The notes beneath the pieces were generated by a model that saw only the letters and a program-made list of their open reading frames with translations, made no database searches and was not told the DNA's origin. This document shows, in pieces, positions 11,492 through 15,859 of a DNA stretch of 16,877 bases. The translations under genes and the position numbers were made by a program. The stretch comes from Candidatus Desantisbacteria bacterium CG1_02_49_89 (GTDB taxonomy: Bacteria > Desantisbacteria > UBA1551), in assembly GCA_001871075.1 (NCBI GenBank), contig MNUP01000093.1, forward strand, positions 1 to 16,877. Reading direction: 5' to 3'. The stretch's first letter is position 1, and every line of letters begins with the position of its first letter.

Positions 11492-11770
11492 ATGGACACA
11501 GAAGTAGTCAGGATAAAAACCAAATACCAGATCGTGATCCCTGTCGCTCTGAGGAAAAAGCTGTCATTTAAAATAGGCGATCTTTTGGAAGCAAGGGTCA
11601 AGGGGGATGAAGTTCTTTTAAAACCCGTAAAAACAATTTCAAAGGACCAGGCGTGGTTCTGGACAGAACGCTGGCAGAAAATGGAAAAAGAGGCGCAGGA
11701 GGACATTGATGCCGGCAGAGTGGAAGAATTTAATAATATTGATGACCTTATAAAGGCTCTGAAAAAATGA
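11492..11770 (+). CDS. AbrB/MazE-type antitoxin
   Basis: A 92-residue protein. Residues 1-46 form a swapped-hairpin AbrB/SpoVT DNA-binding domain (VVRIKTKYQIVIPVALRKKL then FKIGDLLEARVKGDEVLLKP). The remaining half is charged and helical (WFWTERWQKMEKEAQEDIDAG to the end, written here in pieces), as expected of the toxin-binding tail of an antitoxin. It has a clear promoter and GGAGATG at 11481-11487 in front of ATG 11492. The toxin start overlaps its stop by 4 nt (ATGA), the typical coupling of type II modules. Expected role: neutralise the toxin by direct binding and repress the operon. AbrB-fold antitoxins are best known with MazF or PIN toxins; here the partner looks like RelE. Confidence 0.85.
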   Translation: MDTEVVRIKTKYQIVIPVALRKKLSFKIGDLLEARVKGDEVLLKPVKTISKDQAWFWTERWQKMEKEAQEDIDAGRVEEFNNIDDLIKALKK

Positions 11771-12027
11771 GATTTATCTTTACGAAGAAATTCAGAAAAT
11801 GCTATGAGCCGCTGCCCGCGGAAATACAGGAAACAACTAAGGAAAAATTGCGCCTTCTGGTACAGAATCCCCGCCACCCTTCTTTGAGGGTTAAGAAAAT
11901 GCAGGGGGCCAAAGGTATCTGGGATGCAAGCGTCACGATGGATTACCGGCTGACATTTGAAATGGCGGCTGATAAATTAATTTTAAGAGCCATCGGCAAA
12001 CACGACGAAACTCTCAAAAATCCTTAA
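11767..12027 (+). CDS. RelE/ParE-superfamily toxin
   Basis: An 86-residue protein of the RelE-like fold: N-terminal strand and helix FIFTKKFRKCYEPLPAEIQ, a long helix with LRLLVQNPRHPSLRVKKM, then the strands IWDASVTMDYRLTFEM and LILRAIGKHDETL. The KHD near the C-terminus and the DYR pair are where RelE-family mRNA interferases usually place basic and catalytic residues, so ribosome-dependent mRNA cleavage is likely. A ParE-type gyrase poison is the alternative, as the fold does not separate them. It overlaps the antitoxin gene by 4 nt and shares its promoter. The frame is intact, so the module could be functional. Confidence 0.83.
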   Translation: MRFIFTKKFRKCYEPLPAEIQETTKEKLRLLVQNPRHPSLRVKKMQGAKGIWDASVTMDYRLTFEMAADKLILRAIGKHDETLKNP

Positions 12028-12513: not shown

Positions 12514-13782
12514 ATGCAAATATGGGAAAAAATGGGTTTCAGAGATAATCCGTATGATAAGGATAGCCTGGAAGTAAGCGAACAAGGTTCCAATCTTTTT
12601 ATAGACCGAGATTCGGAAAGCAAATATTTCCAGACAGTGCTTTCGTCCGCAAGCGGCGGATTAGTAATGGTCGAGGGTGACGTGGGTGTCGGAAAGACAA
12701 GTTTCATAAATATCCAGCAATACCAAAGTCTTAAGAAGAAAGATGACATGCCGTATCTGCTTCCGTGTTTTGAAACAGTCGAGATCTGCGAGCCGATTGA
12801 TACTTTCCAAATCCTGCTTTCTGTTTTGTCGCACTGTTTCCAAGCATTGGAGAGCATTTTAAAGGACGAGATAAAAAAGGATGATAGGCTCAACGAGATT
12901 TCTCGTCTAATTGGGCAGTCTATCCTGTCTTCCCTTTCCTGGCAGGCAGGCGTTAGTATACCGGGTGGCGCAGGCGGATCAGTCGGATTAGGAAGTACTA
13001 AAACACAAACAGTGCCTGCGGGAGTGTCTGCCCAGATACTTATCAATGCATTAGACAATATGCAAAAGATAATAAGGGAGAAATATGGATTTGAGGGAGT
13101 TTACGTGCTCTTAAATAATTTAAACGTAATATCCGATTCTGGAATAGTAGCGCTTTTTGACCGTATGCGCGACATTTTCGTGAAAAGAAAAAATTTCTGG
13201 TGGATTTTGTTAGCCAGGAAAGGGATATTTTCAATGATGGAAAGAGAAAGTAGCCGCGCAAGTGAAATGTTCAACGGAGAACCCATAGTATTGGCACCTC
13301 TTCCCTGGCCCGAAATAGAAAGGGCAATAGACCTTAGAATAAAATATTTCCGTACAAGAGAGGACGCTGAACCGCCCGTACCAATAGAGATAGTCCATCT
13401 TTTATATGATATTTCCAAGGGAGAAATAAGGTATATCTTTAAAAGGATAACGGATTTAGTTATAAATTTTAAATCTAAATACCCGTCGACTGGAGCCATA
13501 AACTATGATGAGGCATTACTTACCCTGCGTCAATTAGCAGCGGAAAGGCTTAAAGAGCAGAGGTCTTTGTCAAAAACCGACTGGGTCGTGTTGGAAAAGA
13601 TGGCGGATGCAGGCGAGTTCAGGCCTAAAGACTTCCAATGGTTTGGTTTGAAAAGTGCCCAATCCTTGAACAAATACATACAAAAATTCCTGGAGCTAAA
13701 TTTACTTTATAGATTTGAGGAAGGGAAAGCATCCATCTACCGTTGTGCTGGAGACGTGAAACTATATTATCAAAAAAAGTAA
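12514..13782 (+). CDS. Orphan AAA/STAND-like P-loop ATPase with C-terminal winged helix
   Basis: A 422-residue protein. The N-terminal MGFRDNPYD motif resembles the start of ExeA/TniB/Orc-like ATPases. Walker A is GDVGVGKTS at 55-63. The expected Walker B strand reads VYVLLNNLN (197-204), with Asn-Asn in place of acidic residues, so hydrolysis may be weak or the base may lie elsewhere. WWILLARKG (229-237) suits a sensor-1 strand and GEIRYIFKR (303-311) a sensor-2 Arg. Residues ~345-415 look like a winged helix (SLSKTDWVVLEKM ... QSLNKYIQKFLELNLLYRFE). A Gly-rich hydrophobic insert (146-171) is unusual. The gene stands alone, with its own promoters and palindromic boxes, and is more AT-rich than its neighbours, suggesting transfer. 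A DNA-binding regulatory or defence switch is possible; its function is unknown. Confidence 0.8.
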   Translation: MQIWEKMGFRDNPYDKDSLEVSEQGSNLFIDRDSESKYFQTVLSSASGGLVMVEGDVGVGKTSFINIQQYQSLKKKDDMPYLLPCFETVEICEPIDTFQILLSVLSHCFQALESILKDEIKKDDRLNEISRLIGQSILSSLSWQAGVSIPGGAGGSVGLGSTKTQTVPAGVSAQILINALDNMQKIIREKYGFEGVYVLLNNLNVISDSGIVALFDRMRDIFVKRKNFWWILLARKGIFSMMERESSRASEMFNGEPIVLAPLPWPEIERAIDLRIKYFRTREDAEPPVPIEIVHLLYDISKGEIRYIFKRITDLVINFKSKYPSTGAINYDEALLTLRQLAAERLKEQRSLSKTDWVVLEKMADAGEFRPKDFQWFGLKSAQSLNKYIQKFLELNLLYRFEEGKASIYRCAGDVKLYYQKK

Positions 13783-14399: not shown

Positions 14400-14438
14400 C
14401 AATGGGGTTAATCAATAGAAGGTCAGCCGGGGCTTTGC

Positions 14439-14467
14439 TTGACTTTATTTTCAATGTGTGGTATAAT
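14439..14467 (+). promoter_or_regulatory. Promoter of DUF5678-like module 1
   Basis: TTGACT at 14439-14444, a 17-bp spacer and TATAAT at 14462-14467, extended -10 TGG. The 35-nt stretch 14437-14471 is identical at 31 positions to 15080-15114, the promoter of module 2, so promoter and gene were copied together. Confidence 0.85.
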
Positions 14468-14510
14468 GTTACTATCATACACCAGATTTATTTATCAGGA
14501 GGCAAAGGAA

Positions 14511-14702
14511 ATGAAAGCATTGGATATGACGCCAGTTATTAAGAAATATTCAGGATTTTTTGTAGCTTTGAGCTATGACAGAAAAAAAGTATTAGGCAAA
14601 GGATATACGCCCGAAAAAGCCCTTAAGGAAGCAAGGGAGAAGGGATTTAAAGACCCTATTTTGACAAAAATCCCCGTTAAAAACAGCTTATATTTATTAT
14701 GA
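14511..14702 (+). CDS. DUF5678-like small protein (module 1)
   Basis: A 63-residue protein with the pattern YSGFFVALSYDRKKVLGKG, then TPEKALKEAREKGFKDP and a short hydrophobic end. This matches the DUF5678 pattern as I recall it (W/F-V-A-L-S, Asp/Arg-Lys-Lys-V, G-x-G/S, then EA..A...G..DP). It is paralogous to the product of 15171-15383. ATG 14511 is set by AGGAGG at 14497-14502, 8 nt upstream; earlier in-frame starts lie inside the promoter. The stop overlaps by 4 nt (ATGA) an ATG opening a 22-codon frame that looks like the start of a protease partner gene (see 14699). Function is unknown; its constant partner suggests it is a substrate, adaptor or inhibitor of that protease. Confidence 0.8.
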   Translation: MKALDMTPVIKKYSGFFVALSYDRKKVLGKGYTPEKALKEAREKGFKDPILTKIPVKNSLYLL

Positions 14703-14767
14703 AGGAAATAAAATTCCCTTACATAATAACTCACAATAAAAAAAAGGTGTCAGGTCTTGACATGTGA
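14699..14767 (+). pseudogene. Truncated start of a retropepsin-like partner gene
   Basis: The frame begins at an ATG that overlaps the TGA of the DUF5678-like gene and reads MKEIKFPYIITHNKKK before running into the mobile-element end at 14746 and stopping at 14765. In module 2 the intact protease starts MATLTIPYYKLPYKP, a similar Ile/Phe-Pro-Tyr-Tyr/Ile beginning, and also overlaps its DUF5678-like gene. I infer that this is the stump of a second protease gene cut by the element; the resemblance is short and could be chance. Confidence 0.45.
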
Positions 14768-14785
14768 CATATCTTATGATATAAT
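14757..14785 (+). promoter_or_regulatory. Promoter inside the mobile-element remnant
   Basis: TTGACA at 14757-14762, a 17-bp spacer and TATAAT at 14780-14785: perfect consensus, starting within the element's left end. It would drive the transposase stump and read on toward module 2. Confidence 0.8.
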
Positions 14786-14843
14786 CCCTTTTATACAGTA
14801 TCCAATGAGTTAATCCAACCTAAAGAAAGGATCTCCCGCCAAA

Positions 14844-15026
14844 ATGGGCAGGCCGTTAAGGATCGAATTCGAGGATGGTTTCTATCATATCACTTCAAGG
14901 GGAAACGAAAGGAAAAAGATATTCCTGGACGATTATGACAGGAAGAAATTCCTGGAGTTCCTGAAAGAGTATCACCTTAAATTCAGGGCGGTCTTCCATT
15001 GTTTCATCATGGGGGTCAGACCTTGA
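14844..15026 (+). pseudogene. Truncated REP-associated tyrosine transposase (Y1/IS200-like)
   Basis: A 60-residue stump. MGRPLRIEFEDGFYHITSRG, NERKKIFLDDYDRKKFLEFL and FRAVFHCFIM match the N-terminal ~55 residues of REP-associated tyrosine transposases (usual length about 200-300). The family then continues with an N-H-x-H block holding the metal-binding His pair, and later the catalytic Tyr; both are missing. Instead the frame runs into GVRP and stops within the right-end repeat. The protein cannot be an active transposase. AAGAAAGG at 14823-14830 is a plausible but distant ribosome site. Confidence 0.85.
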
Positions 15027-15043
15027 ATATAGGAATTATTCTC

Positions 15044-15072
15044 TTGACTTCCTCTGCTCATTCTGATATAAA
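15044..15072 (+). promoter_or_regulatory. Upstream tandem promoter of module 2
   Basis: TTGACT at 15044-15049, a 17-bp spacer and TATAAA at 15067-15072 with TG at 15064-15065. It lies 38 bp before the better promoter at 15082. Confidence 0.55.
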
Positions 15073-15081
15073 TTATTACGC

Positions 15082-15110
15082 TTGACTTTATTTTCAAAAT
15101 ATGGTATAAT
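15082..15110 (+). promoter_or_regulatory. Promoter of the DUF5678/retropepsin module 2
   Basis: TTGACT at 15082-15087, a 17-bp spacer and TATAAT at 15105-15110, extended -10 TGG. It is nearly the same sequence as the module 1 promoter. Confidence 0.85.
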
Positions 15111-15170
15111 ATTAATGTCGGATTACGTAGCTACTTGAAATCCATAAATAAATTCTGCAAAGAGGGAAAT

Positions 15171-15383
15171 ATGGCAAGAGAAAATAAGGTTGTTGATTTG
15201 ACATCTGCTTTATCCCGATATGAAGGTAAGTGGGTGGCTTTATCCAGGGATGAAAAGAAAGTAGTAGGGAGCGGCAGGACCCTCAAAGAAGCAGTGAGGG
15301 TTGCAGGGAAAAAGAACTGCAAAGACCCTGTTTACACCCAGGTTTTTTCGTTCAGTAAAGGGCTTGCCCCATGGCTACTTTAA
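15171..15383 (+). CDS. DUF5678-like small protein (module 2)
   Basis: A 70-residue protein. Core: LSRYEGKWVALSRDEKKVVG, SGRTLKEAVRVAGKKNCKDP, then VYTQVFSFSKGLAPWLL. The WVALS...KKVVGSG...EA...A pattern fits DUF5678 as I recall it and aligns with the module 1 protein through YxGxxVALSxDxKKVxGxGxTxxxA. ATG 15171 is chosen for AGAGGG at 15161-15166; an upstream TTG at 15135 would add unrelated residues. The last 13 nt overlap the protease gene, so production of the two proteins is coupled. It is probably a soluble cytoplasmic protein of unknown function. Confidence 0.82.
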   Translation: MARENKVVDLTSALSRYEGKWVALSRDEKKVVGSGRTLKEAVRVAGKKNCKDPVYTQVFSFSKGLAPWLL

Positions 15384-15796
15384 CAATTCCATACTATAAA
15401 CTTCCATATAAACCGAGTGAAGCCTTCCCCGAGGAAGAAAATGTCTGGAGACCCTTCGTTGAAGTCCGGATAAATAATAAGACGGCACACATTGACTGCC
15501 TTGCCTTGCTTGATTCGGGGGCAGACAATTGCCTTTTTCCGGCCGAAATCGGCGAATATTTGGGAGTTGATATCAGGAAAGGGAAAACCAAGGAATTTGG
15601 AGGAATCGGGAAAGGAAAAATTAAAGCCTATTTTCATGACGTGCTTTTGCGGATAGAAAATATATCTTTTAAGTGTTGCGCAGGTTTCACTTATGACAGA
15701 CTACCATACGTGCTGTTGGGTCAGAATGGCTTTTTTGACCAGTGTATTATAAGTTTTGACCTGCCCCAGAGAATCATTCGCATTTCTGTTCCTTAA
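15371..15796 (+). CDS. Retropepsin-like aspartic protease
   Basis: A 141-residue protein with the single-domain aspartic protease layout. The catalytic loop is LLDSGADNCLF, with D-S-G-A at residues 48-51, followed by the IGEYLGVDIRKG helix and turn, GGIGKGKIKAYFH near the flap region, and VLLGQNGFFDQ at 114-124, the hydrophobic-hydrophobic-Gly block typical of retropepsins. Like retroviral proteases and bacterial relatives it should work as a homodimer, each subunit giving one Asp. No signal peptide or transmembrane segment is present, so it is cytoplasmic. Its start lies inside the DUF5678-like gene (13-nt overlap). A terminator at 15835-15859 closes the two-gene unit. The target protein is unknown; the DUF5678-like partner is a natural candidate for substrate or regulator. 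Confidence 0.85.
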   Translation: MATLTIPYYKLPYKPSEAFPEEENVWRPFVEVRINNKTAHIDCLALLDSGADNCLFPAEIGEYLGVDIRKGKTKEFGGIGKGKIKAYFHDVLLRIENISFKCCAGFTYDRLPYVLLGQNGFFDQCIISFDLPQRIIRISVP

Positions 15797-15834
15797 TAAT
15801 CTCTGAGAATTGGAATTTTTAATAAAAAACGCAG

Positions 15835-15859
15835 AAAACCGCCAAAAAAGGCGGTTTTT
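15835..15859 (+). terminator. Intrinsic terminator after the protease gene
   Basis: AAAACCGCC (15835-15843), a loop of six A, and GGCGGTTTT (15850-15858), continuing as T. Confidence 0.92.

Follow-up and report, generated by a model that had tools for sequence, protein, structure and literature searches.

Pairing of DUF5678 genes with genes for cytoplasmic retropepsin-like proteases in Desantisbacteria and Omnitrophota

The two units of the window

The window, i.e., the whole stretch of 16,877 nucleotides analysed here (contig MNUP01000093.1 of Candidatus Desantisbacteria bacterium CG1_02_49_89), is part of a 2.48-Mb genome (G000), which is 93.5% complete. It contains two units with DUF5678 genes, both on the forward strand. 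Unit 2 consists of two genes alone and ends before yifB. The first gene (15171–15383, + strand) encodes a DUF5678 protein of 70 amino acids (Pfam, 31.0 bits; cut-off 23.2), and the second (15371–15796, + strand) a cytoplasmic retropepsin-like aspartic protease of 141 amino acids, with matches to Asp_protease_2 and RVP above cut-off and the catalytic motif D48-S-G-A. The frames overlap by 13 nucleotides (15371–15383), as described in an earlier note on this DNA, and the DSGA and LLGQNGFFD motifs given there are both present in the protease. The terminator which the note had assigned to this unit corresponds to a terminator-like hairpin of 10 pairs at 15834–15859 (+ strand; predicted). The layout is that of a type II toxin-antitoxin system, with a two-gene operon, a small first gene and overlapping frames.

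The catalytic aspartate was invariant across an alignment of 32 protease sequences, and the D-[ST]-G-A motif was found together with a retropepsin fold (clan AA), the fold match having been made on a relative (L117). With the model TIGR03698 (clan_AA_DTGF) the window protease reached 13.6 bits, under the curated cut-off of 57.35; 9 of the 32 relatives matched this model at E 0.01.

Unit 1 encodes a DUF5678 protein of 63 amino acids (14511–14702, + strand; 25.6 bits, cut-off 23.2). Here one correction to the earlier picture is needed: this unit is a broken pair and not a lone small gene. An ATG at 14699–14701 overlaps the DUF5678 stop codon as ATGA and opens a leftover protease start of 13 codons, MKEIKFPYIITHN (14699–14739, + strand), which was recognized by sequence reading and by the same arrangement in a second genome (L006), and which carries the FPY start common to many proteases of the family. 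The protease frame then runs into a dispersed, transposase-associated repeat element (about 14740–15068, + strand; boundaries approximate), both ends of which recur elsewhere in the genome, and is broken by it. The element carries a truncated open reading frame (14844–15026, + strand), with a predicted perfect consensus promoter ahead of it (14757–14785). This frame had no Pfam or NCBIfam match; by its resemblance, we take it for the beginning of a transposase of the REP-associated (IS200-like) kind.

The syntenic DUF5678 gene of the second genome likewise stands before yifB. The protease behind it has decayed, its C-terminal LLGQAGFF region being still readable and its start lying in a different frame. 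The two DUF5678 genes differ by 13 synonymous and 5 non-synonymous codons (dN 0.037, dS 0.54, dN/dS about 0.07); the gene of unit 1 is under purifying selection. DNA identity was 89% between 14511–14702 of the window and 1474–1665 of L006, and 65% for the adjacent yifB, which gave no usable dS. A more recent exchange of the DUF5678 gene than of this neighbour is possible.

Each unit is preceded by a predicted promoter of the type TTGACT-17-TATAAT with extended TG, at 14437–14471 (unit 1) and 15080–15114 (unit 2), both on the + strand. Their near identity over 35 nucleotides, as claimed in the note, was confirmed, with 31 of 35 bases alike (88.6%; E 8e-8 in a self-comparison). The motif was not found elsewhere in the 2.48-Mb genome with up to 3 mismatches permitted, and similarity by chance was dropped as an explanation because of this uniqueness. 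Since chance alone also yields such sites (5.2 promoter-like and 4.0 terminator-like ones expected in shuffles of the region), the individual elements are treated as predictions.

The two DUF5678 proteins are the only clear members of the family in the whole genome and are indeed paralogues, both above the Pfam cut-off, with 44% identity over 57 amino acids. This low identity points to an old duplication, and a recent tandem duplication was dropped for the same reason. Thus, of the duplicated module which the note had proposed, the duplication stands, but it is old, and the protease of unit 1 has been lost to a mobile element. Two DUF5678–retropepsin pairs in tandem, a second case resembling the window, were seen at an Omnitrophota locus (L135).

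Two other parts of the window may be mentioned. At 11492–12027, 2.4 kb upstream of the DUF5678 units, a MazE/AbrB-like gene is followed, with an ATGA overlap, by a ParE_like gene (under the Pfam cut-off); this pair looks like a conventional toxin-antitoxin system. An open reading frame of 422 amino acids (12514–13782) gave weak matches alone (AAA_16 and others), with no family above cut-off.

Occurrence and coupling of the gene pair

The searches for pairs covered Desantisbacteria, Omnitrophota and the phylum of an Oxalicibacterium genome (G003). The sole other genome of the window's phylum that was covered (G001) is of the same order as G000 and also contains DUF5678–retropepsin pairs: two further intact ones were found, with overlaps of 4 nucleotides (L004) and 13 nucleotides (L008) and with low sequence identity. 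A third protease of G001 is present as stop-broken remains (L010/L011), which are 57% identical to the window protease. At L004, a gene for a group II intron-type reverse transcriptase (1–1440) stops just short of the −10 box of the pair; its position gives the impression of an intron insertion in the promoter. A scan of genome collections led to an Omnitrophota pair (L016). PF18929 had no match in 398 genomes of the G003 phylum, in a run which gave no signal anywhere at all.

In 384 Omnitrophota genomes, Pfam DUF5678 was found at 74 places in 64 genomes. Directly downstream and on the same strand, 64 of the 74 genes have a retropepsin by profile matches, a count which takes in weak matches (a DTGA protease could be read at L076, L089 and L094); about six of these 64 proteases are truncated or interrupted. 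Another six DUF5678 genes show a protease start or decayed remains: at L031 and L060 the contig ends within the pair, after a visible protease start, and remains are present at L070 (E 8e-6), L085 (E 0.01) and, as judged by eye, L046 and L047. Orphans, as far as could be seen, are the genes at L023, L054, L056 and L090.

For the reverse direction, the alignment of 32 protease sequences was searched against the same 384 genomes. This yielded 85 places at E 1.7e-13 or better, 52 of which were the Pfam pairs. Among the other 33, a DUF5678-like gene was recognized upstream in 22 with our own profile (L016 by arrangement) and in two by eye (L145, L146); these 24 added pairs are no Pfam DUF5678 matches. 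Six of the remaining proteases begin at a contig edge, and three are without partner (L141, L143, L144), with L143 and L144 having an upstream gene in common which is no DUF5678. The retropepsin at L141 is truncated and directly follows a Phd/RelE-like pair. DUF5678 or a divergent form of it was therefore upstream of 76 of the 79 scorable retropepsins of this class, a count which is partly circular, since the profile was built from paired proteases. In a second, longer class of retropepsins (about 200–260 amino acids, weaker matches), DUF5678 was upstream in none of 8. PF18929 was matched by 70 of 77 DUF5678 relatives at E 0.1.

Adjacency had been chosen beforehand as the observation on which the idea of a module could fail; the partner was found next to the gene from both sides (64/74 and 76/79, respectively). 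The association of the two genes is ancient and nearly obligatory.

In most pairs, the protease starts 1 to 22 nucleotides inside the DUF5678 gene. The overlaps are of the types −1 (TAATG), −4 (ATGA) and −10 to −22 nucleotides, with TAATG or ATGA being commonest, where among several possible starts the script took the one nearest to the DUF5678 stop. Pairwise distances of the two proteins were correlated over 78 pairs (r = 0.70; permuted maximum 0.10), to which linkage alone could contribute. The neighbouring open reading frames, 72 in number, contained 97 Pfam families, none in more than three; with such varied neighbours, the two genes act as one unit that is not bound to a fixed context. 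The two-gene module of the earlier note is thus supported by adjacency, stop-start overlap, co-divergence and variable neighbourhood. A promoter-like site with at least 10 of 12 positions was present within 160 nucleotides upstream in 49% of the genes tested, and the best site in this range had a mean score of 9.5 of 12, compared with 7.8 in shuffles.

About 10 proteases are decayed beside an intact DUF5678 gene and the reverse was seen in 2 cases from one clade, in metagenome assemblies, which can hold false frameshifts. A hand estimate, which allowed for the longer protease gene, was suggestive, but not significant, for a loss of the protease before DUF5678 more often than by chance.

A fusion was found in 14 Omnitrophota genomes, where a shikimate kinase (AroK) of about 240–270 amino acids ends in a C-terminal DUF5678 domain and the protease gene still follows (L029, L033, L035, L038, L043, L045, L051, L057, L061, L062, L063, L065, L071, L073). 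In all 14 genomes checked, which belong to one Omnitrophota group, no shikimate kinase other than the fused one was found. DUF5678 is thus a portable domain which stays with the protease.

Structural models and relation to known systems

The model of the window DUF5678 protein showed a short helix, followed by a beta-beta-alpha-beta arrangement (pLDDT 77; core 85–91). A fold search of the PDB with this model gave no match at E 0.001. The best match with VIA-align 2, to deaminases (Z 3.8, about 5 Å rmsd), was discarded as uninformative, and the top rows of a PDB profile search, designed repeat proteins over 17 positions only, as spurious. HicB (6g1c) appeared in the Foldseek list with poor TM values of 0.14–0.25 and E 2.9–5.3.

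At L117 both genes lie in one frame, with the DUF5678 stop codon between them, which allowed the read-through to be folded as a single chain, i.e., a pseudo-complex with TAA translated as G. Two confident domains (pLDDT 94) with a low-confidence junction were obtained; the pTM of 0.71 is near the value which one fixed domain alone could yield. The protease part had its best Foldseek match with APRick of Rickettsia (APRc; 5c9f, 5c9b; E 2e-6, TM 0.72 on the target), from which it differs by an identity of only 18%, and also matched HIV-type proteases. By sequence profile, Ddi1-type eukaryotic retropepsins were the best match among solved structures (E 8e-9), with APRick and viral proteases also found. 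Retropepsins of the Ddi1 type are parts of larger eukaryotic proteins of the ubiquitin pathway.

Two bacterial operons with retropepsins offer themselves for comparison. RimB, encoded in the rimABK operon of Pseudomonas, shortens RpsF at its C-terminal tail (PMC11957791), and is similar in being a cytoplasmic retropepsin-like protease with operon partners and a function in regulated proteolysis; its partners are, however, the ATP-grasp ligase RimK and the phosphodiesterase RimA, and DUF5678 is not mentioned in the accessible portions of that paper (PMC11957791). RloA from the rlo operon of Pseudomonas aeruginosa is likewise an operon-encoded retropepsin fold, but is secreted, with signal peptides and the partners RloB and RloC; the accessible portions of the report do not mention DUF5678 either (PMC12239564). 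An ATP-grasp gene (RimK/RloC) was absent from the window unit and from the 25 commonest neighbour families across the loci.

Members of the protease family matched the PADLOC models PDC-M52B (2e-9) and PDC-M08B (2e-7), which, by their names, are presumably the B genes of multi-gene phage-defence candidates. Related retropepsins have therefore already been flagged as possible parts of phage defence. The corresponding A-gene models had no match at E 0.1 among 77 DUF5678 proteins; thus, this protease family fits the B models of PDC-M08 and PDC-M52, whereas DUF5678 does not fit their A models. Searches for the retropepsin and for DUF5678 in plasmids, as well as a phage search with the protease from L042, found nothing; of 29 stretches matched in viral contigs, none was a relative.

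The small proteins belong to PF18929, a family without an assigned function. In the open literature searched, as far as its texts were accessible, DUF5678 had a sole mention, in a plant-pathogen study, and a link to a protease was not described; the terms "retropepsin" and "toxin-antitoxin" never occurred together in one paper. Within these bounds the system is, as the note had called it, undescribed, and the pairing of DUF5678 with a retropepsin is so as far as the searches reach.

Possible roles of the DUF5678 protein

A pairing so old and so close to obligatory points to a probable role of the small protein in controlling or guiding the protease. In our preferred explanation, held tentatively and at slightly less than even confidence, DUF5678 would be an antidote-like or adaptor-like control partner, cognate to a cytoplasmic retropepsin and translationally coupled to it, the two forming a self-contained module for regulated proteolysis. 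Direct support exists for both family assignments, the gene order, the overlap, the near-obligatory pairing, the co-divergence and the conservation of the catalytic motif. The first gene would provide the DUF5678 protein, a mini-domain of the beta-beta-alpha-beta type whose C-terminal tail is mostly hydrophobic; ribosomes finishing this protein are predicted to restart on the overlapping second gene and to produce the retropepsin, which presumably acts as a homodimer. DUF5678 would most likely bind its cognate protease and hold it in check like an antidote, until a putative signal, or turnover of DUF5678, may free the protease for its cellular target. If the small gene could not be lost ahead of the protease, orphan DUF5678 genes beside decayed or cut proteases, such as those seen here, would be the expected outcome.

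To our knowledge, few bacterial retropepsins have been characterized, and a small protein so closely coupled to one of them would reveal how these enzymes are kept under control in the cytoplasm. For DUF5678, the pairing supplies a partner which is nearly obligatory as well as a role open to testing, and this in phyla known mainly through metagenomes; the fusion with AroK makes this role directly testable on one enzyme.

The same fusion fits a tag or adaptor equally well. DUF5678 could be a recognition element, the protease recognizing or cleaving DUF5678 itself or its fusion partners, AroK among them, and thereby setting the level or activity of tagged proteins. The sole shikimate kinase being fused to DUF5678, with the protease gene next to it, in all 14 genomes of one group would agree with this, as would the mostly hydrophobic C-termini of DUF5678 (-YLL, -TAL, -SIL, -VQIY) and the precedent of RimB, which trims the tail of RpsF (PMC11957791). 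Most DUF5678 proteins stand alone, however, without a tagged cargo, and we consider this role possible, but on the unlikely side. A strict toxin-antitoxin or abortive infection system, in which the protease, once free, would kill or arrest the cell and would be neutralized by DUF5678, is a stronger form of the preferred explanation, so that our confidences in the two overlap in part. The antidote-first order with overlap, the patchy occurrence in multiple copies (by Pfam in 64 of 384 genomes), the decay of proteases beside remaining small genes and the PADLOC matches of the proteases (PDC-M52B, PDC-M08B) are consistent with it. DUF5678, on the other hand, matched no PADLOC partner model above noise, the neighbour families were unlike those of defence islands except in single cases, no members were found in the plasmids, phages and viral contigs searched, and a fusion to a housekeeping enzyme would be unusual for a toxin-antitoxin pair; this strict form appears unlikely. 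Similarly doubtful is a proteolytic toxin-antitoxin-like system with an HIV-protease-like effector and DUF5678 as co-translated antidote, which in one clade would be fused to the only shikimate kinase. If DUF5678 did restrain a protease effector, a new enzyme class would be added to the antidote-controlled systems, among which we know of no protease of this class to date.

Both proteins could also serve the same process in a housekeeping operon, never touching each other, and adjacency of genes cannot alone prove contact. This appears improbable in view of the co-divergence of the two proteins, to which linkage alone could contribute, and of the stop-start overlap, which is kept across highly diverged subfamilies and in varied neighbourhoods.
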